Part shown: in pieces, positions 38,357 through 57,316 of the stretch | Layout: the number at the start of each line of letters is the position of its first letter | Position numbering within the stretch: position 1 is the first letter of the stretch | Assembly (NCBI GenBank): GCA_018818835.1 | Contig: JAHIRD010000148.1 | Location: forward strand, 1 to 64,000 | Length of the DNA stretch: 64,000 bases | Direction: 5' to 3' | Source of the DNA: Pseudomonadota bacterium | Lineage (GTDB): Bacteria; Desulfobacterota; Desulfobacteria; Desulfobacterales; Desulfolunaceae | Made by a program: the position numbers and the translations under genes | The notes under the pieces: model-generated | Databases searched by the model: none | Told to the model about the DNA's origin: nothing | The model's input: the letters and a program-made list of their open reading frames with translations, nothing else

Positions 38357-39574
38357 ATGGAACTGTCAATGCCTACCAGTAGCCGGAAATTATTTACCTT
38401 TGAATTTTTAGCCCTCAACGGAATTATTGTGGTCGCCTTCTGCAATATCGCCGTGTTTTACAGTTTTTTTCATTATCTGGGGAATATCGGTATTACGCCT
38501 GCATGGCGGGGAATTCTGGTAGGTCTGGAACCCATGACGGCTTTTGTCCTGAGGCTTTTTGTTATCCCCTTGATCGGCGCGAAAGACACATCCCGTCTGA
38601 TCCTGGTATCGCTGGTGATGGTCATTGCCGCATCCTGGGCCTATCCCTTTGCCGTGACCATTCCCTCCCTCCTTGTTTTGCGAATATTCCACGGCGCAGC
38701 GTTTGTCCTGCTCACATCGGCGGTGATCGCCCTGATCGTGACATTTATTCCAAAGGAAAAAAGCGGGCAAGGATTCGGGATCATCAGTGTGGCCACCATG
38801 ATTCCCTATGCGGTTGTGCCGCCCATAACCGAAACCCTGCTTCCCCATGTCGCAAATGAAGCCACCATTTATGCGGGTTTTTCCATCTTCGCCTTTCTGG
38901 CCATCTGTCTTCTGGCCATTATGCGCAGGCGTATCGGGAAGACGCTGGCGGACATGGACGCGGACATGATGCGCCGTCCGGCCCTGTCCGAAATCAGGAA
39001 AAATCTTGGAAACCGCGCTGTGCTGATGCTTCTTTTTTTGTCTCTGTTGACCTATCTGGCCCATGCCACGGTTTTTTATTTCATGAAGGATCTTTCACTT
39101 CAGAATCATCTTGGCGATGTGGGGCTTTTTTTCAGCATCTCCATGGTCACTATGATCTCTGTGCGGGCTCTGGGTGGTCCGGCTTTTGATAAAATCGATA
39201 AAACCAGCACGCTGCTGGCGGGCTTTGTTTTTCTGACTGTGTGCCTTATTCTGTTTTCACGTGTTTCCGGCGGCCTGTCATTCTATTGTCTTGCCGGGCT
39301 TTATGGTTTCAGCATGGGCGTCATTCTTCCCCAGATCAACGCCTTGATTTTTACCTTTTCAGCACCGGGGTTGAGGGGCCTGAACACCAATCTGGGACTG
39401 TTTGCCATGGATATGGGTTATTTCATCACACCGGCCCTGGGTGGGGCCATGGTGGGTCTGAGCAGGGGATACGCCACTCCCTTTGACGCCGGTGCCGGCC
39501 TGGCCCTTGTGTCTCTTTTTCTTGTGATGTCCCTTAAACGCATGGGGCCGCCTAACGATCATAACTATTTATAA
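38357..39574 (+). CDS. Major facilitator superfamily transporter
   Basis: 405 residues, about 12 hydrophobic helices with the basic central loop (MRRRIGKTLADMDADMMRRPALSEIRKN) near residue 200. The loop after TM2 contains LFVIPLIGAKDTSRLILVS, a weak form of the MFS signature, and the second half has GGPAFDKIDKTSTLLAGF. No subfamily is recognised. It is the first gene of the long plus-strand cluster and may import the substrate or export the product of the Mo-hydroxylase / aminotransferase pathway. The ribosome site is weak, and a start five codons downstream is possible. Confidence 0.8.
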   Translation: MELSMPTSSRKLFTFEFLALNGIIVVAFCNIAVFYSFFHYLGNIGITPAWRGILVGLEPMTAFVLRLFVIPLIGAKDTSRLILVSLVMVIAASWAYPFAVTIPSLLVLRIFHGAAFVLLTSAVIALIVTFIPKEKSGQGFGIISVATMIPYAVVPPITETLLPHVANEATIYAGFSIFAFLAICLLAIMRRRIGKTLADMDADMMRRPALSEIRKNLGNRAVLMLLFLSLLTYLAHATVFYFMKDLSLQNHLGDVGLFFSISMVTMISVRALGGPAFDKIDKTSTLLAGFVFLTVCLILFSRVSGGLSFYCLAGLYGFSMGVILPQINALIFTFSAPGLRGLNTNLGLFAMDMGYFITPALGGAMVGLSRGYATPFDAGAGLALVSLFLVMSLKRMGPPNDHNYL

Positions 39575-39609
39575 TAAATTATGATTCATTTAAACAAAAG
39601 GAATGTGAG

Positions 39610-40629
39610 ATGAGCATTGGACACGACGCATCCGCTGAGAAAGGTCAGTTTGCCGTGGAACTTTTGCGGCCCGATGACGCCCCAAGCCTGGTTGAACTGT
39701 TCCGGGCCGTTTACGGCAATCATTACCCCATCCAGCTGTTTTACGACCCTGAGGCCATTGTGCAGGCCAACCGGGATGGCCGGTATTATTCCATCGTGGC
39801 ACGGACCCCTTCAGGTCAGATCGTCGGGGCAAGCCACCTTTACCGCTCCTCTCCCTTTCCAGGTCTTTACGAGGCCGGGGTGGGACTGGTGTCTAAGGAC
39901 TACCGGAACACAGGCATCAACAAAAAGCTTCTGTCTTTTTTATATGAATCCTTCGTGCCGGGAATACCCCATATTCAGGAAGTGTTCGGGGAGGCTGTGT
40001 GCAATCATCCTTACATGCAAAAATCTGCCCAGTCTTTTAAACATACCGAAACGGCGATAGAGTTGGCACTCATGCCGGCGGCGGCATACTCGAAAGAAAA
40101 AAGCGCATCTGGCCGGGTGGCGGTTCTGGTCATGTTTCGATGTTATCATTCGGCGCCTCACAGAATTTTTATACCCAGAGTTTATGAAGACGAGCTTCGA
40201 TGGATCTATGCCCGTCTGGATGACGACCGCGAACTATGCCTGTCGGAAGGCAAACATCCGGAAGATATCGAAACCCAGACAGATATGGAGATATTTGATT
40301 TCGCCGGGGTTGTCCGAATTGCTGTCACCCGTTCCGGTGCAGATTTGCAGACATGTGTGGAGACGCTGGAATCAAAAGCCAGGGAAAAAAAAGCCGTCGT
40401 GTTCCAAGTCTGGGTTAATCTGACCGAGCCCTGGGTAGGAGAGTCGGTGGATACGCTCAGGCGAATGGGATATTTTTTTGGCGGAGCCCTGCCGAGATGG
40501 TTTGACGGAGATGGTCTATTGATGCAGAAACTGGAATGCCTGCCGGATTTTGAATCCATTGTACTGGATACAGATGCGGCCCGCCGTATTTTATCTTTTA
40601 TCCAAACGGACCGTGACCGGGTGGGTTAA
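39610..40629 (+). CDS. GNAT-type acyltransferase with second GNAT-like domain
   Basis: 339 residues; AAGGAATGTGAG precedes the ATG. Residues about 15-150 form a GNAT domain (ELLRPDDAPSLVELFRAVYG, SIVARTPSGQIVGASHLY, LYEAGVGLVSKDYRNTGINKKLL with the acyl-CoA loop DYRNTGI). The C-terminal third (AVVFQVWVNLTEPWVGESVDTLRRMGYFFGGALP) looks like the end of a second GNAT fold. The same two-part region follows the RsbW-like domains encoded at 40815 and 51575: the YG..Y...YDPEAIVQANRDG/YYPDQIVEMNRTG stretch aligns well. It appears to be a stand-alone member of this acyltransferase family. Substrate unknown. Confidence 0.75.
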   Translation: MSIGHDASAEKGQFAVELLRPDDAPSLVELFRAVYGNHYPIQLFYDPEAIVQANRDGRYYSIVARTPSGQIVGASHLYRSSPFPGLYEAGVGLVSKDYRNTGINKKLLSFLYESFVPGIPHIQEVFGEAVCNHPYMQKSAQSFKHTETAIELALMPAAAYSKEKSASGRVAVLVMFRCYHSAPHRIFIPRVYEDELRWIYARLDDDRELCLSEGKHPEDIETQTDMEIFDFAGVVRIAVTRSGADLQTCVETLESKAREKKAVVFQVWVNLTEPWVGESVDTLRRMGYFFGGALPRWFDGDGLLMQKLECLPDFESIVLDTDAARRILSFIQTDRDRVG

Positions 40630-40630
40630 A

Positions 40631-40764: not shown

Positions 40765-40814
40765 TATAAACTATAAATTCAAATGATTAGTACTATGACT
40801 TCACTGGAACCCCT

Positions 40815-42143
40815 ATGAAAAAAACACCGATCAGGAAAAACAAAGCATCTGCGCGCTTTCCGTTTATTACGGCGTTTCTGCCCCTTGCCCTGGAGTTTGT
40901 GGACAAGGCGGCTATCTCCTTTGGATTTGAGGGGCCGGAGCGCACCGGCCTGATTCTTGCCGCGGAAGAACTGTACGTCTACCATGCAGCCCGGACAGGG
41001 GGAGATGTGGACATGGATTTGACGCTGGAAGACGGCGGTTACCGGATTCTGCTGACCCTTTCCTTTCACATGTCCAACCCCGACATGCGGGCACTCAACC
41101 TCGCTTTTCAGGTTGATCTGGATGATGAAACGGCGCTTGATATGCTGGGCCCCATGATCGCGGCCCGGTCTGTCAGCGGTCTGAGTCTGGACTTCGGACC
41201 TGCAGAACACGTAATCATTCGTCTCTGGCGGGAGCGGGCCTATGAATTCTCCCCGGCCCTTCCAACCCAGACCCTCAAAAGACAGGGGAACCTAAGAATA
41301 ACCGAACCCGGCCCGGAAGACCTGCGTTATTTTTGCGGTCTTGTTGCATCTGGAAATCAGGCTTTTACCCCGGAATTTCTTCTGAAAGGAGCCATGGCCG
41401 CCGATATGCTGACGGCGGGCGATCTTTGCGCAGCCCTGGCTCTGGATAACGAAACCATTGTGGGAGGCATTGCCTGGAGGAGTTTGACGGAATCCTGCGT
41501 CGAAATGTTTGGACCGTATGTGTTCAGCGAAGATCCCGGCAATGAAATCCTCACCGAGCTGATGGATCAGGCCGTGTCGAAAATTTCCCGAACCTCCGTC
41601 AGGGGAATCCTTCGACGGCAGGGACCAATGACGGGATATGCCCGGTTTTTTGATTTTCTGGGGGAGATTCCCATGACCGATGACAGTGGTAATCCCATGG
41701 CCCTTTCCTATTATTACCGCCAATTGAAAGAAGAAACCGGCGGCAAGGCCATATACAGCGAAAAAGAATTCGCGGGATTTCTCCACGCCGAATACGACCG
41801 GCTTTGTCTGCCCCGGCAGATCCGGGAGACGGATTTCAGAACGTCGGGATTGCGGGAACATTCGGTGATCGCAGTTGAATTCAAAAGCAGGCGGACCCTT
41901 GCCATTCTTCGGCCCTTGTGCGCGGGCCGGGACATGACGGAAAACATGGCGGCTCATATCGCCCTTCTGGAACATCAGGGTGTTTCCAACATCCTTTTTG
42001 AAATCGACAGCGCCAGAGACGAAGACATGATGTTTACAAAGGCACTTGACGCTTCGAGCATGACTCCCGGCCTGATCATACCGGATGCCGCCGAAGGGGA
42101 TCTGGTGATCTTTTACCTGCCTGCCGGACGTGTGCCAGCATGA
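40815..42143 (+). CDS. Degenerate RsbW-like ATPase fused to GNAT-like domains
   Basis: 442 residues. Residues 10-140 follow the anti-sigma kinase fold (FITAFLPLALEFVDKAAISFGF, LILAAEELYVYHAART, ending SLDFGPAEHVIIRLW), but the N-box Asn of the HATPase motif is replaced (EELYVYH) and no G-box GxGxG is visible, so ATP binding is unlikely. Residues about 155-442 resemble the tandem GNAT region of the protein encoded at 51575 (NLRITEPGPEDLRYFCGLVASG..., ALALDNETIVGGIAW, SVRGILRRQGPMTGYARFFDFLGEIPMT). It overlaps the aminotransferase start (ATGA). I infer a pseudo-kinase that may bind a partner-switching protein and steer acyltransferase activity. Confidence 0.62.
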   Translation: MKKTPIRKNKASARFPFITAFLPLALEFVDKAAISFGFEGPERTGLILAAEELYVYHAARTGGDVDMDLTLEDGGYRILLTLSFHMSNPDMRALNLAFQVDLDDETALDMLGPMIAARSVSGLSLDFGPAEHVIIRLWRERAYEFSPALPTQTLKRQGNLRITEPGPEDLRYFCGLVASGNQAFTPEFLLKGAMAADMLTAGDLCAALALDNETIVGGIAWRSLTESCVEMFGPYVFSEDPGNEILTELMDQAVSKISRTSVRGILRRQGPMTGYARFFDFLGEIPMTDDSGNPMALSYYYRQLKEETGGKAIYSEKEFAGFLHAEYDRLCLPRQIRETDFRTSGLREHSVIAVEFKSRRTLAILRPLCAGRDMTENMAAHIALLEHQGVSNILFEIDSARDEDMMFTKALDASSMTPGLIIPDAAEGDLVIFYLPAGRVPA

Positions 42144-43249
42144 ACATCAACGATCTGATACCCGATTATGTGCGGAAGTTCGAGGCGTATATCCCCAGCA
42201 AGCCGGACCATCTGCTGATGAAGGAATACGGAGCCCCTTTTCTTCACCGGTTGAACAATAATGAAAATTTTCTGGGACCTCCCGAGGCGGCCTGCCGCGT
42301 TATCCATGACTTTGAGTCTGGCCGGGCCCTGATTTATCCGTCCGGGGATTCCTATGATTTAAGAACCGCCCTGGCCGAAAAGCTGGGGATCTCCGAAAAC
42401 CGCCTGCTGGTGGGGAACGGTTCATGTGAGGTGATCAGCGCGTTGATCAAGGCGCTTTGCGAGCCGGGCGACAATATCATCACAGCGGACAAGACGTTTG
42501 CCGTTTACGAATGGGTGGCCGAATTCTCAGGAATCGAGGCACGCCTTGTCCCCTTACGGGATTATGCCTTTGACCCCCAGGCCATGCTGGACCGGATTGA
42601 CCGGAGAACCAAAATCCTTTTCCTGTGCAATCCCAACAACCCCACAGGCACTTACTGGACCGAGTCTGAGCTGACCTCCTTTCTGGAAAAGGCCGGAGAA
42701 GACCGGATCGTCGTGATTGACGAGGCGTACTGTGAATATGTGGAAGCCGATGATTACCCAGACGGACTCCGGCTGATGGAGCGCTTTCCCAACGTGGTCG
42801 TGTTTCGTACCTTTTCAAAAATGTACGCCCTGGCTGGGTTGAGGGTAGGGTATCTTGTGGGAACGGAAGAGGTGGTGGATGTGGTGCGGCGGACCTTTGT
42901 GGCCTATTCGGTCAACAACCTGGCCCAGCAGGCGGCAAGAGCAGCTATTTTAAACGATAAAGAACACATCGCCAAAACCCGGAAAATAGTAAATGAAGCT
43001 CGTTTTTTTTTAAAAGGCGTCTGCGGAAAGATCGGACTGGATTGTGTGGGCGGTCAAGGCAACTATCTGATGATCCGGTCTCCGGTAAACGATCTTCTTA
43101 TGTATCGCAGACTTATGAAAAAAGGCATGATGGTGCGCTCCATGACCGGTTTTCGGTTTCCCGGTTGGATACGGGTAACGCTTCGGGAGATGGGTGTGAT
43201 GGAAGCGTTTGCGGATGTGCTGACGGATGAAATAAAGGCTCTGGTCTGA
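42140..43249 (+). CDS. HisC-like pyridoxal-phosphate aminotransferase
   Basis: 369 residues, fold-type I class II aminotransferase. RLNNNENFLGPP (substrate loop), GNGSCEVISALIKAL (PLP phosphate), FLCNPNNPTGTYW, VVIDEAYCEYVE (PLP Asp and Tyr), and VFRTFSKMYALAGLRVGY with the Schiff-base Lys are all in place, and the C-terminal WIRVTLREMGVMEAF carries the carboxylate-binding Arg. It resembles histidinol-phosphate aminotransferase, but no other his genes are near and the flanking genes are a kinase-like GNAT fusion and a Mo-hydroxylase, so a different amino acid or amine substrate is likely. Translation is coupled to the gene before it. Confidence 0.85.
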   Translation: MNINDLIPDYVRKFEAYIPSKPDHLLMKEYGAPFLHRLNNNENFLGPPEAACRVIHDFESGRALIYPSGDSYDLRTALAEKLGISENRLLVGNGSCEVISALIKALCEPGDNIITADKTFAVYEWVAEFSGIEARLVPLRDYAFDPQAMLDRIDRRTKILFLCNPNNPTGTYWTESELTSFLEKAGEDRIVVIDEAYCEYVEADDYPDGLRLMERFPNVVVFRTFSKMYALAGLRVGYLVGTEEVVDVVRRTFVAYSVNNLAQQAARAAILNDKEHIAKTRKIVNEARFFLKGVCGKIGLDCVGGQGNYLMIRSPVNDLLMYRRLMKKGMMVRSMTGFRFPGWIRVTLREMGVMEAFADVLTDEIKALV

Positions 43250-43404: not shown

Positions 43405-43455
43405 CGATGAACAAATAATTAAGCAGAACCAAATAAGAACATCAGGATAAAAAAA

Positions 43456-45753
43456 TTGAATAAAGACACCCATTCACACACCAGACTTGAAATCGGCAAG
43501 TCCCACCCCAGAGGCGACGCAGCGGACAAGGCGGCGGGACGGGAAAAATATGCGGCCGACCATTACCCGGAAAATGTCCTATGGGCCGGGGCGGTCCGGG
43601 CAGGTATTGCCCATGGGCGGCTTCTGGCCGTTGATGTGTCCCAAGCCATAGCTCTTCCCGGAGTGATCACCATTTTGACGGCGAAAGATGTGAAAGGCTC
43701 CAACCGCCAGGGCATCATTCACAAGGACATGCCGGTTTTAGTGGATGACCGTATTTTGTATTGCGGTGATCCGGTGGCGCTGGTGGTGGCGGAAACGAAA
43801 GACATTCTGTCACGGGCCATCGCCCTTGTCCGATTCAGCACAGAAACCCTGCCTGCCGTATTTGACCCGGAAAGTGCCATGGCGGAAAACGCGCCGCTTC
43901 TCCACGAAGCCATGCCGGGCAATTTTTTGATGCAGGCGGAAATCAGGAAAGGCGACGCGGAAAGCGAATTTTCGGCCTGCGATGCCGTTGTGGAAGACGA
44001 GTTTTCAACCCCGGTTCAGGCCCACGGATTTCTGGAAACGGAAAACGGGGTAGCCTGGCAGGAGCTGGACGGCAAGATTGTGATGATTGTCTCCACCCAG
44101 GCCCCTTTTCGGGACCGGCTTGAAATTGGCCATGCCGTGGGATTGCCATTTGGAAACATCCGCATGATCAGTCCGGCCCTTGGCGGCGGTTTCGGTGGCA
44201 AGGACGGAGCTACGGTTCAATGCCTGCTGGCTTTGGCGGCCCTTCATACGGAGGGAAGGCCCGTGAAAATGCAGTGGGAACGGGAAGAAAACATGCTTGC
44301 AGGATACAAACGTCATGCCTGCCGGATGCGCTACAAACTCGGAGCCAAAAAAGATGGCACCCTTCACGCCATCCATTGCAATCTGGTTTACGATACCGGC
44401 GCCTATGCCCATCTGGGGGGTGAGGTCATGGAACTGGGTATGGAACACGCGGCCGGACCTTACCGGGTTCCCCATACCCTGATTGAGGGCAAATGCGTGT
44501 TCACCAATAATCCCGTGGGTGGAGCCATGCGTGCGTTCGGGGTCTGTCAGGCCACCTTTGCTTTCGAATCCATGATGGACATGCTGGCCGATCGTCTCGG
44601 CATGGACCGGCTTGCCATCCGGCAAAAAAATGCTCTGGTGGAAGGGGATGAGAACTGCGCCGGAGTCCGGATGATCACGTCTACGGGCATTGCCGGATGT
44701 CTGGATATCCTTGGCGATCATCCGTTGTGGCGATCCGCAAACAACTGGAAACAGGAGTGTCCGCCCGGCAGGAAACGGGGAATCGGGCTGGCATCCGTCT
44801 TTAACGCCGCCGGTTACGGAGGTAAGGTTCGGGATTCCGCCATTGCTAAGGTGGAACTGTCCCTCGATGGCCGCATCATAGTCCATAGTGCGGTCACCGA
44901 TATGGGACAGGGCAATTCCTGTGCGTTTTCGCAGATCGCAGGTCATATGCTGGGCCAGTCCCCGGAATTTATTGAACTGCGGCAGCCGGATACGGCCACC
45001 GCTTATCCGTCAGGATCATCTTCCGCAGGCCGCACCACATACACCTTCGGAAATGCCCTGATCAAGGCTTGCGAGGATATGAAAGCCCGGCTTATCAACC
45101 GGGCGGGGCTTCTGCTGTTTATCGATAATGACCGGGATCTGGCCTTAGAGCCAGGAAAAGTGACCCATGGCCCCAGCAAACGAGATGTTTCGTTCACACA
45201 ACTTGCGTCGTTCATGCCCCATGAAGACCGGGTCTGCATCAGCCAGTTCGTTGCCCCTGTCTGTGAAGACATTCCCGATACGGCCAAGGGGTTTTTTATC
45301 GCCTTTCCCCATATCATTTTCGCCTATGGCGCCCATCTGGCAAGAATTGAACTGGATACGGCCACCGGCGTGATCACGGTGTGCGACTATCTGGCTGCCA
45401 CGGATGGCGGCGGCATCATCAATCCCTCCATGTTCGATCAGCAGATTCAAGGCGGTGTGGCCCAGGGTCTGGGCTATGCGATGATGGAAGATTTTCAGAT
45501 CAGAGAAGGAAAGCCGCTGACCAAAGATTTTACGGGTTATCTGATTCCCGGCTCACTGGATCTACCGGACACAATCTCCATCCCTTTTCTGGGCCATGAA
45601 TCCACCGGGCCCTTCGGCCTGAAAGGCGTGGGGGAAGTGGCCATGAATGGCCCCTTGCCAGCGGTGGCCAACGCAGTGCACGACGCCTGCGGGGTAAGGA
45701 TTTTCCATGGGCCGATCACAGCTGAAAAAGTGTTGGCGGCAATGAATCTTTAA
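43456..45753 (+). CDS. Molybdenum hydroxylase large (MoCo) subunit, xanthine dehydrogenase family
   Basis: 765 residues from a TTG start with CAGGA upstream. N-terminal part KAAGREKYAADHYPENVLWAG, YCGDPVALVVAET; molybdopterin-binding part with GGGFGGKDG, GGAMRAFG (substrate-loop Arg), TDMGQGN.CAFSQIAGHMLG and, near the C-terminus, FGLKGVGEVAMNG, whose Glu (about residue 727) is the catalytic base. With the FeS and FAD subunits downstream it forms a three-subunit hydroxylase that inserts water-derived oxygen into an N-heterocycle or aldehyde. No purine genes are near, so xanthine cannot be assumed. Separated from the small subunit by a MITE-like element, so the operon order is large, small, FAD rather than the common FAD/FeS first. 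Confidence 0.9.
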   Translation: MNKDTHSHTRLEIGKSHPRGDAADKAAGREKYAADHYPENVLWAGAVRAGIAHGRLLAVDVSQAIALPGVITILTAKDVKGSNRQGIIHKDMPVLVDDRILYCGDPVALVVAETKDILSRAIALVRFSTETLPAVFDPESAMAENAPLLHEAMPGNFLMQAEIRKGDAESEFSACDAVVEDEFSTPVQAHGFLETENGVAWQELDGKIVMIVSTQAPFRDRLEIGHAVGLPFGNIRMISPALGGGFGGKDGATVQCLLALAALHTEGRPVKMQWEREENMLAGYKRHACRMRYKLGAKKDGTLHAIHCNLVYDTGAYAHLGGEVMELGMEHAAGPYRVPHTLIEGKCVFTNNPVGGAMRAFGVCQATFAFESMMDMLADRLGMDRLAIRQKNALVEGDENCAGVRMITSTGIAGCLDILGDHPLWRSANNWKQECPPGRKRGIGLASVFNAAGYGGKVRDSAIAKVELSLDGRIIVHSAVTDMGQGNSCAFSQIAGHMLGQSPEFIELRQPDTATAYPSGSSSAGRTTYTFGNALIKACEDMKARLINRAGLLLFIDNDRDLALEPGKVTHGPSKRDVSFTQLASFMPHEDRVCISQFVAPVCEDIPDTAKGFFIAFPHIIFAYGAHLARIELDTATGVITVCDYLAATDGGGIINPSMFDQQIQGGVAQGLGYAMMEDFQIREGKPLTKDFTGYLIPGSLDLPDTISIPFLGHESTGPFGLKGVGEVAMNGPLPAVANAVHDACGVRIFHGPITAEKVLAAMNL

Positions 45754-45764
45754 TAAAGAGATCA

Positions 45765-45945
45765 GCCTCCGGCGGCCCTCCGGGGGCCAGATTTTAAAAA
45801 TCTGGATCGGTCTTCGCCAAGGCTTCGCCCCGACACGCAAATGGGTTTGTGCATGATCGTCAGGGCACGGCGCGCCGTGCCCCTACAACAAAACCTGTTT
45901 CTCAAACGTTACAAAAGTTTGGCCCCCGGCAGGGCCGCCGGAGGC
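45765..45945 (+). repeat. MITE-like intergenic element, copy 3
   Basis: 181 bp bounded by 13-bp inverted repeats GCCTCCGGCGGCC (45765-45777) and GGCCGCCGGAGGC (45933-45945). It shares the AGATTTTAAAAATCTGG palindrome, CAAATGGGTTTG and TTTGGCCCCCGGCAGGGCC with copy 2. It also carries a perfect internal palindrome GGGCACGGCGCGCCGTGCCC, of which copies 1 and 2 keep only remnants. It lies between the large and small Mo-hydroxylase subunit genes. Confidence 0.75.
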
Positions 45946-45983
45946 ATATTATAAAACAATCGGATATAGAAAAAGGCCAGACC

Positions 45984-46463
45984 ATGGACATAAAATTTAC
46001 ACTCAACGGCAACTCTCAGTCGCTTTCCACGGAACCGGACAGGCGGGTGATTGATCTGCTACGGGAAGACCTGGGACTTACGGGAATCAAGGAAGGATGC
46101 GGGACCGGCGAATGCGGGGCCTGCACCGTTCTGATGGATGGAGAAACACGATTGTCCTGCCTCACCCTCGCGGCCCAGATTGACGGCAGGGATATCACCA
46201 CCATCGAAGGGTTGCAGGATATGGAAGAAGGCATCATTCTCCAGAAGGCATTTGAGGAGCAAGGAGCCGTCCAGTGCGGGTACTGCATTCCCGGCATGGA
46301 AATGGCAGCTCTGCCTTTGCTGACGTTGCATCCAAACGCAGCAAGGAATGATATTAAAATCGCTTTGAGCGGCAATTTGTGCCGGTGTACGGGATATGTG
46401 AAAATCGTGGATGCGGTGGAACAGGCGGGCCGTGAAATCGCCGTTAAAAAAGAGGGCTTATGA
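45984..46463 (+). CDS. Molybdenum hydroxylase [2Fe-2S] small subunit
   Basis: 159 residues from the ATG at 45984 (AAAAGG upstream); a longer frame runs back into the MITE-like element. N-terminal plant-type ferredoxin fold with CGTGECGACTVLMDG and a further Cys in TRLSCLTLA; C-terminal helical domain with QCGYCIPGMEM and LCRCTGYVKIVDAV. All eight cluster ligands of the CoxS/XdhC-type small subunit are present, giving two 2Fe-2S clusters that link the MoCo site to FAD. The stop overlaps the next start (ATGA). Confidence 0.92.
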   Translation: MDIKFTLNGNSQSLSTEPDRRVIDLLREDLGLTGIKEGCGTGECGACTVLMDGETRLSCLTLAAQIDGRDITTIEGLQDMEEGIILQKAFEEQGAVQCGYCIPGMEMAALPLLTLHPNAARNDIKIALSGNLCRCTGYVKIVDAVEQAGREIAVKKEGL

Positions 46464-48053: not shown

Positions 48054-48116
48054 ATGGATATTCAGACACAACAGACAGGCAAGTCCACCGTGGAACCGGC
48101 TGTGGTGGTGGGCTGA
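48054..48116 (+). pseudogene. Stunted STAS (anti-sigma antagonist) reading frame
   Basis: A 20-codon frame with a good ribosome site (GAGGTGAG) begins MDIQTQQTGKSTV, which is how STAS-domain anti-anti-sigma factors start (compare MEISKTQTADAIKL encoded at 58504), but ends after seven more residues. Its TGA overlaps the ATG of the RsbW-like kinase (ATGA at 48116), the usual coupling of antagonist and kinase genes. I infer an in-place deletion that removed about 80-90 codons of a STAS gene; a leader peptide is the alternative. Confidence 0.5.
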
Positions 48117-48559: not shown

Positions 48560-48564
48560 CAGCA

Positions 48565-49581: not shown

Positions 49582-51484
49582 AAGTATCACCTTTAAACTG
49601 GTTCTAATTATTACAGTATTCAGCTCCCTGATATTTACGGCCACCATCGGGTATTTCTACCATCGTTCCTGTGGTGTGCTGCAACGTGAGCTGGAGAAGA
49701 ATGCCCGGAACATCGTTCTTGCCTCTGTGAACAGGGTTGAGATGGAACTGTCATCCATCGGCAAAGTGGCTGAAGGGGTGGTTTGTTCTCTGGAAACAGG
49801 GAACTACCATGAAGAATCACTAAACACACTACTAAAGAACACATTAGGCGGGAACAAAGAAATTTATGGCGTTGGCTCAGCCTTCGAACCGAATGAGGCC
49901 GCTATCGAAGCCGTACCCGTGGTGCCTTATTTCTACAGAAAAAATGGTCGGCTTATCTCAGCTGCGGAAGAGGATTTTCAGTTTCTCACTCTGGACTGGT
50001 ACCAGATACCCAAAGAATTAGGGAAGAGGGTGTGGAGTGAGCCGTATTTTGATGAAGGCAGTGGAGAGATGCTGATGACCAGCTGTTCGATTCCTTTCTA
50101 TGAAGGGACCGGTGATCATCGGCATTTCCGGGGGGTGGTGGTTGCTGATGTGTCTCTGGGATGGCTGACGGACATTGTCGCATCCATCAAGGTGCTGAAA
50201 ACCGGATACAGTTTTCTTCTGTCACGAAACGGGACGATCGTTACCCACCCTGACACCGGGATGATCATGAATGAGACGATCTTCAGTCTTGCCGAGTCGC
50301 GGAACAATCCGATCCTTCGTGATATTGGCAGAAAGATGATTCATGGCGATTCCGGTTTTATTCCGTATACAGATACCCGGGGCATCAAAAGCTGGATGTA
50401 TTATGCACCGATTCTATCCGCCGGCTGGACATTGGCGGTTGTATTTCCTGAGGCGGAACTGTTTGCAGAGGTGCGTTCATTGACCATGATGGTGGGTGTT
50501 ATGGGCCTGGTCGGGATTATGCTGCTTGCGGCCGCGGTGGCGTTGATTTCCCGTTCGATTACCGCTCCGCTTCATGCGCTGGCCGATGCAACTGAAGTCA
50601 TCGCAGCGGGTGATTTTGATGCGGAGTTACCCCAGGTAAGGTCAAGGGATGAGGTGGGAAAGCTGACCCGGTCCTTTATCGCCATGACCATCGCGTTGAA
50701 AGAATACATCAGGAACCTGACCGAAACCACCGCCGCCAAGGAGCGGATCGAGAGTGAACTCAAGGTGGCCACCGATATCCAGGCCAGTCTGTTACCCCGG
50801 ATTTTCCCCGCATTCCCCGATCGTCCCGAGTTCGACATATTCGCCTCCATGGATCCAGCGAAAGAGGTGGGGGGTGACTTCTACGATTTCTTCTTCATTG
50901 ACGACACCAATCTCTGTTTCCTGATTGCCGATGTGGCCGACAAGGGCGTGCCAGCCGCATTGTATATGATGGTGGCAAAGACCCTGTTGAAATCCGAGGG
51001 GCAACGACTGGGAGAGCCGGACCTGATACTGGCCAGTGTGAATAACATTCTTGCGGCCGATAATGACAGCTGCATGTTCACAACGGTATTCTGCGCTATC
51101 CTTGATACACGAACAGGAGACGTACGTTTTTCCAATGCCGGACATAACCCCCCGTTGATCATCGAATCATCCGGGATACGCTATCTCACCGTGAAAGCCG
51201 GTTTTGTGCTGGGACCCATGCCGGATAGCGACTACGAAACAGAGCGGCTCACATTGCAGCCCGGGGATACGCTTTTCCTCTACACCGACGGAGTGACCGA
51301 GGCGGTGAATCTGTCAGGGGAACTGTACGGAGAACCTCGGTTGCTCACGGCCCTTCAGATGAGCCCTAAAGAAAACCTCAGCGAAATGATTCATTCCATC
51401 CGTGCCCAGGTCACAGGACATGCCAATGGCGCGCCCCAATCGGATGATGTGACCATGGTGGCTGTGCATTACAAGGGCGCATAA
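49568..51484 (+). CDS. Cache-HAMP-SpoIIE serine phosphatase (RsbU-like sensor)
   Basis: 638 residues from the ATG at 49568, five bases after GGGAGG. TM1 (about 10-32) and TM2 (about 305-330) enclose a double Cache periplasmic domain (YFYRKNGRLISAAEEDFQ, WSEPYFDEGSGEMLMTSCSIPFY, GYSFLLSRNGTIVTHP). HAMP (ITAPLHALADATEVIAAGDFDAELP) and a short coil lead to a PP2C/SpoIIE domain from about 410 with the metal-site acids in KEVGGDFYDFF, ADVADKGVPAALYM, LFLYTDGVTEAVN and SDDVTMVAVHY. All catalytic Asp residues are present. It should dephosphorylate a STAS antagonist when its periplasmic ligand, perhaps delivered by the binding protein gene before it, is sensed. Confidence 0.9.
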   Translation: MRANRSITFKLVLIITVFSSLIFTATIGYFYHRSCGVLQRELEKNARNIVLASVNRVEMELSSIGKVAEGVVCSLETGNYHEESLNTLLKNTLGGNKEIYGVGSAFEPNEAAIEAVPVVPYFYRKNGRLISAAEEDFQFLTLDWYQIPKELGKRVWSEPYFDEGSGEMLMTSCSIPFYEGTGDHRHFRGVVVADVSLGWLTDIVASIKVLKTGYSFLLSRNGTIVTHPDTGMIMNETIFSLAESRNNPILRDIGRKMIHGDSGFIPYTDTRGIKSWMYYAPILSAGWTLAVVFPEAELFAEVRSLTMMVGVMGLVGIMLLAAAVALISRSITAPLHALADATEVIAAGDFDAELPQVRSRDEVGKLTRSFIAMTIALKEYIRNLTETTAAKERIESELKVATDIQASLLPRIFPAFPDRPEFDIFASMDPAKEVGGDFYDFFFIDDTNLCFLIADVADKGVPAALYMMVAKTLLKSEGQRLGEPDLILASVNNILAADNDSCMFTTVFCAILDTRTGDVRFSNAGHNPPLIIESSGIRYLTVKAGFVLGPMPDSDYETERLTLQPGDTLFLYTDGVTEAVNLSGELYGEPRLLTALQMSPKENLSEMIHSIRAQVTGHANGAPQSDDVTMVAVHYKGA

Positions 51485-51574: not shown

Positions 51575-53068
51575 ATGAAACCCGTCGAATCCGTTATTAT
51601 CCTTCCGTCCCAGTTGAGATTTGTCAATCCGGCCATTGCGTTTATAAGAGCTACAGCGGCATCCTGCGGTTTTTCCGAATCAGGGCTCAACGAAATAGAA
51701 GTGGCGGCAGAAGAGGCGTTGACCAACGTGATAAAGCATGCCTTTGAAGGGCGGTCTGAGGAAACATTCAAGATATCGATCCGTTTCACAGAATCGGATT
51801 TCATGATCACCCTTTTCGAGAAGGGAATGCCCTTCAGTCCTGACCGTGTTGCGGGCTACGATCCGGAGCAATTCGAAAACACACTGGATACGGACGGTCT
51901 GGGGGTCTTTCTGATGAAAAAGATGATGGACGATGTGATATTTGAAAACCTCGGACGTGACGGTAAATCGCTCACCCTGGTCAAGCATATTAAGGGCGGC
52001 CATATACAAGGGATAATGGACCACTCCGGGAATGAGGTGCTGGTCAACAGCAGGCCGGATGTCACCAGGGAGAATTTATCATACGAGATTCGTCCGTTCC
52101 GGCCAGAGGATGCGCTGGAAATATCACGGTGCGCCTATAAAGCCTATGGTTACACGTATGAGCCATACATCTATTATCCCGATCAGATTGTTGAAATGAA
52201 CCGGACTGGGAAACTGGTCTCATTTATCGCGGCCGATAAACACTCGGGCAACATTATGGGCCATATTGCGTTGAAATATAAAAAAACAGAAGACCGTGTT
52301 GCAGAGGTCGGTGTCGGTTTCATCAAACCGGAATACAGATTGTCCGGGGCGTTTAATGCATTAACGAATTTCTGCCATGAAAAAGCAAAAGAACGGATAT
52401 TGTTCGGAACCATTGGAAGGGCTGTGACGAGCCACATCGGTTCACAAAAAGTCGCAGATTCCATGGGCTATGCAGTATGCGGGATCTTTCTCTCGCTGTT
52501 CCCCGATGATATCGATTTTAAGGCACTCACCGGAAAAGTCAGGCAGAAGGAGGCCGGTCTTTTGTTATACCGCCGGATTTGTGAAGACGGCGAAAGAAAG
52601 ATTTTTGTCCCGTTGAGTCATCAACGCACCATATCCGATCTGTTCGGATCGTTAAACATCGCTGTGCAATGTGCCTCAGTCGAAACAGAACCCACGGCCA
52701 TTCAGAGCCGGATCACTGTGGATGTGGTTCCCGTTCTTAATGTCGCCGATGTGGACGTTCATACCATCGGGGTCGATATCGGGAATGAATTAAAATCCAC
52801 CGTTCATACCCTCTGCCTGAAACATGTGGATGCTATTTTTATCCACTTCGATATGGAAGACCCGGCCACGCCCTTTGCTGCCCGGCAGTGCGAGCCATTG
52901 GGGTTTTTCTTTTGCGGCGTTCAGCCGTTCGGCCTGAACAACAAGCATGAACTGATTCTGCAATACATGAATAATCTGGATATCAATTACGATATGATAA
53001 AACCCTATTCTCAGAGTGCGATGAACCTGTTGAATTATGTGAGAGCTTCGGATGTGAACAAACACTAA
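51575..53068 (+). CDS. RsbW-like kinase fused to tandem GNAT acyltransferase domains
   Basis: 497 residues from the ATG at 51575 (GGAG upstream). Residues 1-140: HATPase_c_2 with N box VAAEEALTNVIKHAF, a slightly changed G1 box (FEKGMPFSPD, where DxG is usual) and G2 box TDGLGVFLMKKMMDD. Residues about 165-330: GNAT domain (YEIRPFRPEDALEISRCAY, GNIMGHIALKY, EVGVGFIKPEYRLSGAFNAL). Residues about 385-480: second GNAT-like part (AIFIHFDMEDPATPFAARQCEPLGFFFCGVQP). The fusion ties an anti-sigma-type kinase to an acyltransferase, so a partner protein could switch acylation. It follows the SpoIIE phosphatase by 90 bp and resembles the protein encoded at 40815. Confidence 0.8.
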   Translation: MKPVESVIILPSQLRFVNPAIAFIRATAASCGFSESGLNEIEVAAEEALTNVIKHAFEGRSEETFKISIRFTESDFMITLFEKGMPFSPDRVAGYDPEQFENTLDTDGLGVFLMKKMMDDVIFENLGRDGKSLTLVKHIKGGHIQGIMDHSGNEVLVNSRPDVTRENLSYEIRPFRPEDALEISRCAYKAYGYTYEPYIYYPDQIVEMNRTGKLVSFIAADKHSGNIMGHIALKYKKTEDRVAEVGVGFIKPEYRLSGAFNALTNFCHEKAKERILFGTIGRAVTSHIGSQKVADSMGYAVCGIFLSLFPDDIDFKALTGKVRQKEAGLLLYRRICEDGERKIFVPLSHQRTISDLFGSLNIAVQCASVETEPTAIQSRITVDVVPVLNVADVDVHTIGVDIGNELKSTVHTLCLKHVDAIFIHFDMEDPATPFAARQCEPLGFFFCGVQPFGLNNKHELILQYMNNLDINYDMIKPYSQSAMNLLNYVRASDVNKH

Positions 53069-53090
53069 AAAAAGGAAAAGAGGCTATCAA

Positions 53091-53897
53091 ATGATAAAAT
53101 ACGACGACATATATACAAGAAACATAGGTCTTTTCACCATTGAAGAACAGCAGGCGTTGCGGAAATCCGTTGTGTCAATCGCCGGAGTGGGAGGTGTTGG
53201 GAGTTACCAGGCCGTGGCACTTGCACGGCAGGGAATCGGCGAACTGCGTATTATGGACCCCGGCGTTTTCGACGAACCGGACCTAAACCGTCAGTACGGG
53301 GCGTTGATGAGTACCATTGGTGAAAACAAAGCCGCGGCAACCACTAAAATCCTGAAAGATATCAATCCTTACGTGACCATAAAAACATATACGAAAGCCG
53401 CCGAACGGGTGGAAGACATTGAAGAATTTGTAAACGGCGCCGATATCGTCATCGATGCCATCGATTACGCCGGTTTCGGCCATAAACAGATGCTTCACGC
53501 CTGTTCTCGCGCCAATGGCCAGTATGTTCTTTCGTCTCCCATACCCGGTTTTGGTGCAACTCTGATGGTTTTTTCCCCCGACGGTATGACCATGGAAGAC
53601 TATTACGGAGCACCTTCCGATCCCGGTCTTTACAAAAATTTCAGTTTGCCGATAGACACATTGATGCCGAAAGACAGGGTGCCCCCATTTTACAGTGATT
53701 TTGAGCAAGGTCGAATCCCTTATTTGTCAACGAACGGCGCATCTGCTCAACTTTCCGGTGCCCTTGCGGGTCTTGAAGCCGCTTTGATGATAACGGGAAA
53801 ACGAAAGAAAGAAGACTTAGTCGTTATTCCCGAAATAATATATGTGGATCTCTTCAATCGTAGTTACTCAATTCATAATCCAACGCTGAAGAGGTGA
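53091..53897 (+). CDS. ThiF/MoeB-family E1-like adenylyltransferase
   Basis: 268 residues. Rossmann ATP site SIAGVGGVGSYQAVALARQGIGELRIMDPG, the Arg-containing EPDLNRQYG segment that contacts ATP, NPYVTIKTY and DIVIDAIDYAGFGHK (metal Asp). The CxxC zinc site and the obvious catalytic Cys of MoeB/ThiF are absent, so it may only adenylate a carboxylate, as in some ThiF-like enzymes of natural-product and tRNA-modification pathways. No ubiquitin-like ThiS/MoaD partner is encoded nearby. It precedes the carboxyltransferase with coupled translation and belongs to the long plus-strand cluster. Confidence 0.83.
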   Translation: MIKYDDIYTRNIGLFTIEEQQALRKSVVSIAGVGGVGSYQAVALARQGIGELRIMDPGVFDEPDLNRQYGALMSTIGENKAAATTKILKDINPYVTIKTYTKAAERVEDIEEFVNGADIVIDAIDYAGFGHKQMLHACSRANGQYVLSSPIPGFGATLMVFSPDGMTMEDYYGAPSDPGLYKNFSLPIDTLMPKDRVPPFYSDFEQGRIPYLSTNGASAQLSGALAGLEAALMITGKRKKEDLVVIPEIIYVDLFNRSYSIHNPTLKR

Positions 53898-53902
53898 TGC
53901 CG

Positions 53903-55294
53903 ATGATTGTTGATACAACTTATTCACGGATCGAGAAACTGTTTGATAGAGAGTCGTTTACGCTATTTAATCCAGGCAAAAATAACGGTTTCGTGACCGG
54001 ATACGGAAACGTGGACGGTATGGAGGTCATGGCCTCTTTCATTGACCCTGATAATTCAGCTGAAAGCTCTTTTATCGCCCTTCAGACCCATCTGGCTCTT
54101 CTTGAAAACGCACTGGGGAAAAAGGTTCCGATGGTTTTTGTCATGGATGTTCCCGCACAACATAAAACTGCCGATCAAAGTCCTTTTCCCAAGGATCCGA
54201 TAAAACTTCTGGCGGATAAAAACGGTATGGGCCGGATGTTTTCAACTCACGCCAGGCTTTCCGGCAAAGTGCCTCAGGTTGTTGTGGTTCTCAACAGGCT
54301 TGGGGCAGCGCTGACATTTCCGGTGGCGTTATGCGACGCCGCCGTTATGGTTGAATCTGCCGGAATGAGTATCGGGAGGCCGGACGTTGTGGAAAAAATA
54401 TGCGGGATTCCTGTTGATTATACCGAACTCGGCAGTGCTTCCATGCATTATGCCACGTCGGGCTCCATTGACCATGTTGCCGCAGACGAGGCGGAGGCGT
54501 TTGCATGGGTCAGGCATTATCTGAGCTGCATGATACAGGATAAAAAAAAGGACTATGCACCACCGGAACCTGATGAAGCTGCGCTGGAAAAAACGATTCC
54601 GGCAAATCTTAATATGGCGTTTGATACGCATGAGGTGATCAGGGGAATCGCGGACGCCGGGTCATTAATCGAATTGAGGGCCGGAATTGCCCGTGAACTG
54701 ATTACCGGGTTTGTCAGGATAGAGGGGCGGGTTGTTGGGGTTATAGCCAATAACTCATCGATTCGTGGTGGTCTTTTTTTTCCGGAGACATGCAGAAAAT
54801 CGTCCCGATTTATCTCCATCTGCGATTCGTTCGGCATTCCTCTGGTGTTTCTTGCCGATGACGCAGGATTCATGGTGGGTCCGCAGGTTGAACAGGCCGG
54901 TGTTATCAGGGAGGCGTCCCTTCTTTTTTCAACCATTGCCAATGCCGCCATTCCAAAACTCTCGGTTGTTCTGCGCCGCAATTACACCGCCGGGGTTTAC
55001 GCCATGGCCGGCCCTGGTTTTGACCCTGACCGTTTCATTGCCCTTCCCGGGGCTGTCATATCCATCTACGGAAAAGGGGTCGCAGAAAAACTCTCATCTC
55101 GAGGTTTTGACGATATAGAAAACGAGGCCATGCTCGAAATGATGCGCGGTGCGGAAGATCCTTACAAATTACTTGAAATGGGACTGATCGACGAGGTGAT
55201 CGACATACGCTCTTTACGGGCAACCATCGTGGCTTTTTTAGATAGAGTCTCTGGCAGAATTACCAAAAGCGGTAAACCTGTTTTGATTGTATAG
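53903..55294 (+). CDS. Acyl-CoA carboxylase-type carboxyltransferase
   Basis: 463 residues from the ATG at 53903 (AAGAGG upstream; GTG/ATG starts just before overlap the ThiF stop). Crotonase-like carboxyltransferase halves are both present: FVTGYGNVDGMEVMASF and GKKVPMVFVMD in the N-half; GVIANNSSIRGGLFFPETCRKSSRFISICDSFGIPLVFLADDAGFMVGPQVEQAGVIR and YTAGVYAMAGPGFDPDRFIALPGA in the C-half, with the Gly-rich oxyanion elements. It is a little shorter than propionyl-CoA carboxylase beta (about 510). There is no biotin carboxylase or biotin-carrier gene nearby, so it may work with a distant partner, as a decarboxylase subunit, or without biotin. Substrate unknown. Confidence 0.83.
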   Translation: MIVDTTYSRIEKLFDRESFTLFNPGKNNGFVTGYGNVDGMEVMASFIDPDNSAESSFIALQTHLALLENALGKKVPMVFVMDVPAQHKTADQSPFPKDPIKLLADKNGMGRMFSTHARLSGKVPQVVVVLNRLGAALTFPVALCDAAVMVESAGMSIGRPDVVEKICGIPVDYTELGSASMHYATSGSIDHVAADEAEAFAWVRHYLSCMIQDKKKDYAPPEPDEAALEKTIPANLNMAFDTHEVIRGIADAGSLIELRAGIARELITGFVRIEGRVVGVIANNSSIRGGLFFPETCRKSSRFISICDSFGIPLVFLADDAGFMVGPQVEQAGVIREASLLFSTIANAAIPKLSVVLRRNYTAGVYAMAGPGFDPDRFIALPGAVISIYGKGVAEKLSSRGFDDIENEAMLEMMRGAEDPYKLLEMGLIDEVIDIRSLRATIVAFLDRVSGRITKSGKPVLIV

Positions 55295-55321
55295 GAAACA
55301 TAAATAGGAAAAGGTGTTTGG

Positions 55322-56338
55322 ATGAAACAAAATTTTGTACGCATTGTTATGATGCTGGTGTTGATGGTATCCATGCTTTCTTGTGTTCATGCCGGTGAAA
55401 ACGTGACCACCCGGTATGGCATCGTTGATAATCATATCCACTTCCTGGATTTTACCCAGAAAACCGACGGCTTCGTCAGTTTGACCCAGGCAATGGATAA
55501 GGCCGGTGTGGAAAAAGCGGTGGTATTTGGCATGCCGATGGTCAAGATGTGGACAGAATCAGACCCTGTGCGTCCAGCTTATTATATGGACACAGACGCC
55601 CCCGTATACTATTACTCCGGCACCGATTTCATTCTTGCCCATGAGCTTGCCAATCAATCGCCGGAGGTCCGAAATCGGTTTTTCCCCTTCATCTGCGGGA
55701 TCAATCCGCTGGATATGAATGCTGCCGAGCAGATCGAAGCGGCGTTGAAAATGTATCCGGGCTTCTGGAAAGGCATCGGGGAGGTTATGTCACGACACGA
55801 TGATCTGACCGCATTTTTGTACGGAGAACCCCCAAGGGCAGACCATCCGGCGCTGATGCGTGTCTATCGGCTTGCCGCTAAACACGGACTGCCCGTGTTG
55901 ATACACCATAATATTTCTTCCGCCTGGTTAAGAGACCCGATCTACTTGAAAGAACTGGAACATGCAGTAAGGGAAAACCCTCAAACCACATTCATCTGGG
56001 CACACGCAGGAATTTCAAGGCGAGTGGATGTCCCCACCCTGTTAACGAATCTGCAACGAGTTATATCAACCTACCCGAATCTCTTTATCGATATTTCATG
56101 GGTTGTCTATACCGATTATATCGCCAGGGACAAGGAATCCATGGGGAAATGGGCCACCCTTATTGAAGAATTCCCTGATCGAGTGATCATCGGTTCGGAC
56201 AAAGTGGGCCATTGGGACACGTATCCTCAGGAAATCACCAAGTACTATCCGCTTCTTAATTTACTGAAACCTGTTACAGCAAGAAAGGTGGCGAAAGGGA
56301 ATATTTTAAGGATATTAGGTGAGAATTCAAAGGAATAA
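55322..56338 (+). CDS. Secreted amidohydrolase-family (metal-dependent hydrolase) protein
   Basis: 338 residues. A signal peptide (VRIVMMLVLMVSMLSCVHA) suggests export; LSC could also be a weak lipobox. The amidohydrolase-2 barrel shows the metal motif DNHIHF, GIGEVMSRHDD, VLIHHNIS (second His), TFIWAHAGISRR (third His) and RVIIGSDKVGHW with the late Asp. This family hydrolyses or decarboxylates ring and carboxylate substrates. Periplasmic location would place it outside the cytoplasmic Mo-hydroxylase route, so a link in substrate is uncertain. It follows the carboxyltransferase by 27 bp and has an AGGAAAAGG ribosome site. Confidence 0.8.
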   Translation: MKQNFVRIVMMLVLMVSMLSCVHAGENVTTRYGIVDNHIHFLDFTQKTDGFVSLTQAMDKAGVEKAVVFGMPMVKMWTESDPVRPAYYMDTDAPVYYYSGTDFILAHELANQSPEVRNRFFPFICGINPLDMNAAEQIEAALKMYPGFWKGIGEVMSRHDDLTAFLYGEPPRADHPALMRVYRLAAKHGLPVLIHHNISSAWLRDPIYLKELEHAVRENPQTTFIWAHAGISRRVDVPTLLTNLQRVISTYPNLFIDISWVVYTDYIARDKESMGKWATLIEEFPDRVIIGSDKVGHWDTYPQEITKYYPLLNLLKPVTARKVAKGNILRILGENSKE

Positions 56339-56356
56339 TCCATAAGGAGACGAAGC

Positions 56357-57316
56357 ATGAACGCATTCAACACAATCACACGTGACATGACATCCGTTTT
56401 CGTGAGGATTGCCCTGTGTGCCGGGCTGTTTATCGGTTGCATCACGACGAACCCTGCTCATCGTCAAGGCGTTGTTCTCGTATCAACACTGCCCGATTTA
56501 AGTGGTCTGGCCTGGGTTGAGGGAGATCTGTTCATCGGTGTTCATGATGCCAAACGCAATCCGGCGAAATACAACTGGCCGCGGGTCACTCTTTTGCATC
56601 TTCCCAAGTCGGAAATCGAGGGCGTCACCTGGCAGTCTATTGATGTGACGTTTCCTGGTCCCGATGGGCCCAGCAGTGACCTGGAGAGCGCCAGTCCCAT
56701 CCCCGGCGGCAAAGGATTCCTGCTTGCAGAGAGCGGTCAGGAAGGCGAACATGCCCGGCGGATTTTCCACGCCGTTTACAGCAACGGCAAGATGAATATC
56801 GAGTCTTTTGTTAACTGGCCCGTGCCCATTGAGAATGTGGAGGGAATCGAGGTCTGCCAGGTCGGTCAGCAGCTGGTTTTCATGTATGCTGAACGCGCGG
56901 AAGGCCAGCCATCCACAAAGCTCAGGTGGGCTCCGCTTTCACTGAATCCCCTGTCTTTCGGCAAATTCAAGGAAGTGACGTATAAAGGAGTAGACCCCAT
57001 AGGGGCGGGTGTAAGGCCCATCAGTGCTCTGGCGGCTGATTCCGACGGGTTTATCTACATTGCTTCCGCTTACGATTCGGGAAATGATGACGGACCGTTC
57101 AAAAGCGTGGTGTGGCGAATAGGGAAGATGATTGCCGATGATAAAGGCAATCCCGTGGTTGAACTGGGTGAGAGTAAGCGACTGGCGACCATGGACGGTT
57201 TGAAAGTTGAGAGTATTGCCGTGCGTGAAACCAAAGAAGGAGGCAAACAGGTGTATGTTGGGACGGATGATGAGCACTATGGGGGAATCATTCGCCTGCT
57301 TCCGGACGTTACCTGA
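56357..57316 (+). CDS. Lipoprotein with predicted beta-propeller (esterase/phytase-like)
   Basis: 319 residues. A hydrophobic signal ending in LFIGC (lipobox, Cys about 28) marks a lipoprotein. The body has repeated strand patterns: LPDLSGLAWVEGDLFIGVHDAK, SSDLESASPIPGGKGFLLAESGQ, NVEGIEVCQVGQQLVFMYAER, RPISALAADSDGFIYIASAYD, KVESIAVRETKEGGKQVYVGTDDEHYGG. This resembles SdiA-regulated / esterase-like phytase propellers, which bind calcium or act on phosphate esters; no catalytic site can be named. It is last in the plus-strand cluster, 18 bp after the amidohydrolase, and precedes an inverted repeat at 57365-57395. Confidence 0.7.
   Translation: MNAFNTITRDMTSVFVRIALCAGLFIGCITTNPAHRQGVVLVSTLPDLSGLAWVEGDLFIGVHDAKRNPAKYNWPRVTLLHLPKSEIEGVTWQSIDVTFPGPDGPSSDLESASPIPGGKGFLLAESGQEGEHARRIFHAVYSNGKMNIESFVNWPVPIENVEGIEVCQVGQQLVFMYAERAEGQPSTKLRWAPLSLNPLSFGKFKEVTYKGVDPIGAGVRPISALAADSDGFIYIASAYDSGNDDGPFKSVVWRIGKMIADDKGNPVVELGESKRLATMDGLKVESIAVRETKEGGKQVYVGTDDEHYGGIIRLLPDVT

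Follow-up and report, generated by a model that had tools for sequence, protein, structure and literature searches.

The gene run

Partner switching has mostly been studied as a means of sigma-factor release. Here, we describe a stretch of 64,000 nucleotides (the window) from contig JAHIRD010000148.1 of a Desulfobacterota genome (order Desulfobacterales, assembly GCA_018818835.1), in which genes for a SpoIIE phosphatase and an RsbW kinase stand among metabolic genes together with three proteins predicted to carry tandem GNAT domains. One of these, encoded at 40815 (genes are named by their start positions), appears to be a conserved pseudokinase, and its gene marks an operon to which the partner switch is recurrently linked across the phylum.

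From 38357 to about 57316 every listed gene lies on the forward strand, and no gap exceeds about 210 bp (Table 1), as judged from the open reading frame (ORF) list and a Pfam scan. A first-pass annotation had described this co-directional run, and the genes that it named were recovered in their places, save that the SpoIIE gene starts at 49547 and not at 49568 and that the NMT1 gene at 48556 had gone unlisted. The XdhC gene at 37338 and the STAS gene at 58504 are the immediate flanks of the run. The window holds two modules together, namely the partner-switch/40815 operon and a second composed of the fusion gene 51575 with ThiF and carboxyltransferase genes.

Table 1. Genes of the run and its immediate flanks, with the evidence for each assignment
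Feature	Position	Strand	Evidence
XdhC-type molybdenum hydroxylase (Mo-hydroxylase) maturation factor, divergent	37338..38234	-	Pfam XdhC_C E 4.8e-32; NCBIfam XdhC_rel_AOR below cut-off
MFS transporter, probable exporter	38357..39574	+	Pfam MFS_1 E 1e-25
Stand-alone ('solo') tandem-GNAT protein	39610..40629	+	no Pfam match; hhalign to fusion family E 1.5e-41
Predicted pseudo-RsbW and tandem-GNAT protein, cluster marker gene	40815..42143	+	no Pfam match; hhalign to fusion family E 7.9e-18
HisC-like pyridoxal phosphate (PLP) aminotransferase (class I)	42140..43249	+	TIGR01141 276.9 bits; PLP lysine motif FRTFSKM
Mo-hydroxylase large subunit	43456..45753	+	MoCoBD_1 E 4.2e-79; below all NCBIfam equivalog cut-offs
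Mo-hydroxylase [2Fe-2S] subunit	45849..46463	+	Fer2_2 E 1.3e-25
Mo-hydroxylase FAD subunit	46460..47323	+	FAD_binding_5 E 5.8e-45
MobA/MocA-like cofactor nucleotidyltransferase	47316..47918	+	NTP_transf_3 E 3.6e-32; TIGR03310 and DVU_1551 family both below cut-off
Stand-alone RsbW-type serine kinase	48116..48559	+	HATPase_c_2 E 9.5e-27
Secreted NMT1/THI5-type solute-binding protein, overlaps both neighbours	48556..49581	+	NMT1 E 1.7e-37; hydrophobic signal-like N-terminal stretch
dCache-HAMP-SpoIIE phosphatase	49547..51484	+	SpoIIE E 1.1e-50; dCache_1 E 9.4e-21; HAMP E 9.8e-13
RsbW-like domain and tandem GNAT fusion	51575..53068	+	HATPase_c_2 E 7.6e-21; start is Met31 of the 51485 ORF
ThiF-type adenylating enzyme, second module with fusion	53091..53897	+	ThiF E 6.4e-34
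Carboxyltransferase, second module	53894..55294	+	Carboxyl_trans E 2.6e-74
Amidohydrolase, end of run	55322..56338	+	Amidohydro_2 E 1.4e-13
Phytase-like/beta-propeller protein, membership doubtful	56357..57316	+	Phytase-like E 0.003, below cut-off
STAS protein with phospho-serine motif YISSAGLR, likely switch protein	58504..58809	+	STAS E 6.1e-15

Tandem-GNAT proteins and the RsbW-like domain of 40815

The 51575 protein has full-length relatives in four other genomes, with which it was aligned; its orthologue at L012 is 64% identical. In the predicted model, residues 1-138 match SpoIIAB/RsbW structures and residues ~168-340 match GNAT structures (Z ~14); the GNAT Pfam matches of the window proteins lie below cut-offs (E 0.03-0.08), while orthologues of 51575 reach or approach them. 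Profile comparison with the 51575 family (E values in Table 1) covers the GNAT part of 39610, the match on which the GNAT fold of that protein rests, and the full length of 40815 (424 columns). By these profile matches the three are paralogues of common descent, which bears out the first-pass description of 39610 as a stand-alone GNAT of the same type and of 40815 as a version of the same fusion.

The N-terminal region of 40815 is of particular interest. Residues 7 to ~140 of its model match SpoIIAB with Z 16 (root-mean-square deviation 2.4 across 124 residues) and RsbW with Z 15.5, and these matches rank well above unrelated structures. The RsbW fold that had been proposed for the N-terminal regions of both 51575 and 40815 is found in the models of each. 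The Mg-binding asparagine of the N-box is kept in none of 66 40815-type sequences, where the position is Tyr in 45 and His in 14, and the N-box Glu-Glu is retained in 64 of 66. In the stand-alone RsbW at 48116 and its relatives, the N-box Asn and the G1 Asp and Gly (Asp-x-Gly) are present in all 21 sequences compared, and 58504 and the other cluster STAS proteins compared retain the second Ser of SSAGL, the phospho-serine motif. Sequence and model together thus depict 40815 as a conserved pseudokinase with a SpoIIAB fold. The first-pass term 'degenerate' holds, but not in the sense of a decayed copy. This paralogue is the most regularly switch-linked of the family, and a decaying pseudogene is ruled out because positions are conserved across 66 relatives and the aminotransferase neighbour is near-strict.

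The GNAT parts suggest that the tandem-GNAT proteins are acyltransferases. The arginine of motif A (R/Q-x-x-G-x-G/A) is present in all 62 solo (39610-type) and all 49 fusion sequences, and the glycine that follows it is aligned in 39 and 38 of these, respectively; the fusions are variable in their kinase part, an Asn aligning at the N-box position in 31 of the 49. The first-pass annotation had proposed protein or metabolite acylation as the output. Protein acylation, in which the tandem GNATs would acetylate the lysines or N-termini of proteins, the operon enzymes among them, draws on the structural resemblance of GNAT1 of 51575 to RimI, Ard1 and other GNATs, and protein acetyltransferases regulated by sensor domains are known in general. 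A GNAT structure, however, is no guide to whether the substrate is a protein or a small molecule, since enzymes for polyamines and aminoglycosides score equally, and the strict partnership with the aminotransferase points to a metabolite, so that we consider a protein-acylation switch very unlikely. A small-molecule pathway is the half of the earlier proposal that fits better, since the neighbours are aminotransferases, MFS or MATE transporters and acyl-activating enzymes.

Three further arrangements around tandem-GNAT genes were recorded. An MFS ORF with an N-terminal GNAT-like stretch (L107:10400-11881), either a real fusion or a misread start codon, adjoins a solo gene; a gene pair encoding an AAA_21 ATPase and a DUF4276 protein lies between two solo genes (L088:8100-10095); and proteins combining STAS with a domain of ~300 residues that has no Pfam match (L098:7838-9088 and L180:1586-2800, 39% identical to one another) are each encoded directly beside a tandem-GNAT gene.

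Linkage of the partner switch to the 40815-type operon

Within the order, 34 of 389 genomes carry a 40815-type gene; in the sample from the whole phylum the figure is 49 of 395 genomes, or 39 of 246 genera. Neighbourhoods were taken from the DNA stretches around hits, in which the 40815-type gene was readable at 70 loci, and an operon was defined as genes on one strand with gaps below 400 bp; because this rule is simple and several contigs are short, the operon counts are lower bounds. An aminotransferase shares the operon at 68 of the 70 loci. The Mo-hydroxylase large subunit is present in 34, making the Mo-hydroxylase setting stressed by the first-pass annotation frequent but optional, an MFS or MATE transporter, the two interchanging, in 35, and a solo tandem GNAT in 32. 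STAS genes occur in 20 operons, RsbW genes in 14 and SpoIIE genes in 14, with at least one partner-switch gene in 23, and the NMT1 protein appears in 11, each time alongside partner-switch genes. Complete or near-complete operons are found at L092, L107, L136, L140, L150, L154 and L165, and the switch is contiguous with the operon at L134 too; the switch lies upstream of the operon at L147, L148, L152 and L167 and is divergent at L141. XdhC also belongs to the clusters of L101-L105, L114, L169 and L172, LuxE, LuxC and AMP-ligases are acyl-activating neighbours in other genomes, and an adenosine-deaminase homologue takes the place of the Mo-hydroxylase at L078, L079, L091, L097 and L139. At L105:13982-16345, a Cache-HAMP-SpoIIE phosphatase is fused to a C-terminal RsbW domain, in a cluster with STAS.

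In 24 of 75 genomes, the 40815-type gene has a SpoIIE gene no more than ~12 kb away. Counted by family, against a background set by the SpoIIE count of each genome, SpoIIE is close in 15 of 27 families where 1.8 were expected (P ~3e-13), a value to be taken as a guide only because the 12 kb radius of the phylum set was picked after an operon length of ~11 kb had been seen, and full independence of the families cannot be assumed. The six SpoIIE cases from the order were counted with a 10 kb radius and so lie inside the 12 kb limit as well; any further ones in the order at distances of 10-12 kb went uncounted, which is conservative. With the family of the window left out, SpoIIE is close in 14 of 26 families. 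As for STAS, 10 of the 34 genomes of the order have such a gene no more than 10 kb away, where 1.0 would be expected (P 3e-8). A stronger sign than the P value is that gene orders differ between loci, which suggests a linkage re-formed or repeatedly selected. The linkage of the partner switch to the 40815-type operon is recurrent. Some genomes abound in partner-switch genes, and their presence beside these genes could have been a chance neighbourhood in one genome, but recurrence across the phylum at this family-level significance rules this out and leaves it a negligible probability.

What recurs differs in part from what had been anticipated. The first-pass annotation had raised the prospect that the GNAT-bearing genes might be unlinked elsewhere from SpoIIE, STAS and Mo-hydroxylase genes; the GNAT proteins are linked to SpoIIE, STAS, RsbW and Mo-hydroxylase genes in other genomes, but it is the 40815 type that carries the switch linkage, the intact 51575-type fusions being mostly orphan genes or parts of another module. 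The fusion recurs with ThiF and carboxyltransferase at L012, L065, L068 and L183, and beside LuxE/LuxC at L061-L063 and L193, contexts that rule it out as the usual core of the system. It meets a partner switch in few genomes, namely that of the window and those of L068 (SpoIIE-STAS-RsbW-ThiF-WbuX-like-fusion-carboxyltransferase), L180 (STAS genes flanking the fusion on both sides), L184 and L186 (STAS-RsbW-fusion in both) and L193 (LuxE-LuxC-fusion-STAS-RsbW-SpoIIE). The WbuX-like protein, of the N-acetyl sugar amidotransferase family by a match below cut-off, is paired with a ThiF protein at L068:7998-9428, L115, L122 and L171; comparison of L068:7998 with the PDB gave no convincing match.

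In some genomes the switch appears to be exclusive to this operon, in counts from draft genomes where a second copy may have been missed. A genome-wide count finds a single SpoIIE and a single HATPase_c_2 domain (E<1e-8) in each of G065, G467 and G500, both in this operon with STAS, and in G065 and G500 the STAS hit is single too; the sole SpoIIE of G162, G165 and G526 is likewise in this operon. Several genomes have their one complete phosphatase-kinase-STAS set inside a metabolic operon, alongside a conserved pseudokinase-acyltransferase-domain protein. The first-pass annotation had remarked on the lack of a sigma factor gene, and in a scan with the SigB/F/G model alone (TIGR02980) no such factor scored above cut-off in any of 13 genomes, that of the window included; the best reached ~135 against 234 bits, and the best hits fall mostly in long frames of RpoD size.

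These results bear on a reading as ordinary partner switching, in which a sigma factor or other transcriptional target encoded elsewhere is controlled, the module governs transcription of the operon, and the RsbW-like domain attached to GNAT is an unrelated regulatory or dimerisation domain. Such a reading would suit the classical residues kept by RsbW, STAS and SpoIIE, and, according to literature cited in PMC8256260, the Rsb network of Chlamydia controls the primary sigma factor. The window genome has 22 SpoIIE genes and five STAS hits (E<1e-4), so that many of its phosphatases are without an obvious STAS partner and many switches presumably work in trans. The SigB/F/G scan speaks against it, covering as it does genomes whose sole switch is here, and no sigma or regulator gene recurs among the annotated neighbours, the unlabelled ones not having been exhaustively typed. 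It would also leave unexplained both the RsbW-like-domain proteins inside the operon and the loci at which STAS stands in the 40815-type operon with no RsbW (L084, L109, L113 and L162). We regard a transcriptional target as unlikely.

Upstream of 37.3 kb lie genes for glycosyltransferases and for TPR and radical-SAM proteins, which appear unrelated; a short ABC-ATPase fragment, probably a truncated gene, occupies 58110-58502 immediately ahead of the STAS gene; and 60583-63969 (reverse strand) encodes a protein of 1128 residues with lactonase-like propeller, Ig-like and phosphoesterase matches. An Rfam scan of the window gave no match, and a promoter and terminator scan, whose counts were close to those of shuffled sequence, was not used.

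Proposed function and relation to known systems

The aminotransferase at 42140 scores just above the TIGR01141 cut-off of 276.55 bits in a genomic context unlike that of histidine synthesis, and its stretch TADKTFAVYEWVA.FSG is conserved across 30 sequences at a level of 95% or more. The Mo-hydroxylase at 43456-47323 belongs to its superfamily by Pfam, the best substrate-specific model, pucD, scoring 529 against a cut-off of 784 bits; NCBIfam and PDB matches, all below cut-off, were of no use for its substrate, and the matches of the NMT1 protein, distant thiamine-pyrimidine binders only, allowed no assignment of a ligand. The only PDB hits of the MFS protein were to the NorA exporter (E ~3e-4). 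Taken together, the neighbours suit a pathway that makes and exports an acylated compound of amine type, given a PLP aminotransferase, tandem GNATs, interchangeable MFS and MATE transporters, optional oxidising or deaminating enzymes and acyl-activating enzymes. The same genes could be cast as a catabolic cluster, with the MFS protein importing an N-heterocyclic or purine-like compound that the Mo-hydroxylase (or adenosine-deaminase-like enzyme) and aminotransferase degrade, the switch sensing the nutrient and the GNATs acylating intermediates or proteins. The XDH type of the Mo-hydroxylase, its replacement by the deaminase homologue at the loci given above and the amidohydrolase at 55322 lend themselves to degradation. 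Elsewhere, however, MATE exporters, LuxE/LuxC, AMP-ligases and the WbuX-like protein replace or join the set, which fits synthesis better, and the Mo-hydroxylase lies below the cut-off of every substrate-specific model; we consider catabolism decidedly unlikely.

The reading that we prefer, and to which we give about an even chance, is that of a partner switch dedicated to a biosynthetic operon and not to a sigma factor, in which STAS is read by the pseudo-RsbW domain of 40815 and the product is an acylated, probably exported metabolite. Control by a periplasmic ligand, as the first-pass annotation had supposed, is plausible from the Cache domain and the secreted NMT1 protein. Such a ligand, perhaps via the NMT1 protein, would activate SpoIIE (49547), which would dephosphorylate the STAS-P made by the RsbW kinase 48116. 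Free STAS would then bind the kinase-dead RsbW-like domain of 40815, and that of the fusion 51575 where present; 40815 could bind STAS without phosphorylating it, a role that fits the presence of STAS in 40815-type operons with no RsbW. Binding may switch either the activity of 40815 or the way in which it partners the aminotransferase and 39610, the solo tandem GNAT. The aminotransferase, tandem GNAT and Mo-hydroxylase, and elsewhere acyl-activating enzymes, would make or modify the acylated small molecule, which an MFS or MATE protein would export.

Several observations weigh against this proposal. The 40815 model has a predicted local distance difference test score of 61, and fusion sequences in its alignment could have favoured an RsbW fold. 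In an 18-sequence alignment, the conserved R-x-x-G of motif A is absent from the aligned place in the 40815 type, whose own GNAT part may therefore be inactive. The STAS gene of the window is 7 kb downstream of SpoIIE, outside the operon, and about two-thirds of 40815-type operons have no linked switch gene, some of these on short contigs. RsbW could still bind another sigma factor, by analogy with the Chlamydia network, and the export direction of the MFS protein is a prediction from a weak NorA match.

If the pseudokinase does read the state of STAS, this would be a new wiring of the partner switch to enzyme activity, and might offer a general logic for the many Gram-negative STAS and RsbW-like proteins without a known target. 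The operon also points to an undescribed metabolite pathway widespread in the phylum. A broader proposal, which we hold tentatively and think somewhat doubtful, is of an undescribed phylum-wide system in which a periplasmic-ligand switch, STAS and a kinase-dead RsbW directly control synthesis and export of the acylated small molecule, possibly a secreted signal perceived by the same Cache/NMT1 sensor. Neither RsbW/HATPase-GNAT fusions nor this operon were found described in the literature searched, which took in few subscription journals.

Parts of the system resemble known families. The aminotransferase 42140 barely reaches the TIGR01141 cut-off of the HisC family and has the PLP lysine motif but, in the loci read, partners a pseudokinase-GNAT gene and not histidine genes. 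Tandem GNATs are found in mycothiol synthase, an acyltransferase with two consecutive GNAT domains in one chain, and in histidine N-acetyltransferase (PDB 9en3), a weak Foldseek match to 40815 (prob 0.89); both are without an RsbW-like domain, and their resemblance to the 40815 family is one of architecture.

The switch itself shares with RsbU/RsbV/RsbW and SpoIIE/SpoIIAA/SpoIIAB a SpoIIE phosphatase, a phospho-serine STAS protein and a HATPase_c_2 kinase with intact N-box and G1, and differs in having no linked sigma factor, no SigB/F/G-type factor above cut-off and an extra, apparently kinase-dead RsbW domain fused to a tandem GNAT. Outputs of STAS proteins other than sigma release are already known, as in SypA/SypE of Vibrio fischeri and BtrU/V/W of Bordetella (PMC8256260), and what appears new here, from the literature searched, is the RsbW-GNAT fusions and this operon; the targets of those systems are biofilm gene expression or type III secretion, and the passages of that review consulted describe no GNAT or Mo-hydroxylase partners. 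The nearest functional analogue appears to be SiaABCD of Pseudomonas aeruginosa, where the state of a small switch protein is governed by a phosphatase and a kinase, and the dephosphorylated protein has an enzyme as its target (PMC7278518, PMC7647112). There too a membrane PP2C-type phosphatase, a SpoIIAB-fold kinase and a phospho-switch protein are directed at an enzyme and not at a sigma factor; SiaB is among the structures matched by the 40815 model (Z 12.4), and among NCBIfam models the 49547 protein scores best with SiaA, although below the cut-off of that model. In the present system, by contrast, the switch protein is of the Pfam STAS family and not SiaC, the diguanylate cyclase SiaD is absent, the scan of cluster proteins having turned up no cyclase domain, and the proposed reader would be a pseudokinase-GNAT protein within a metabolic operon.

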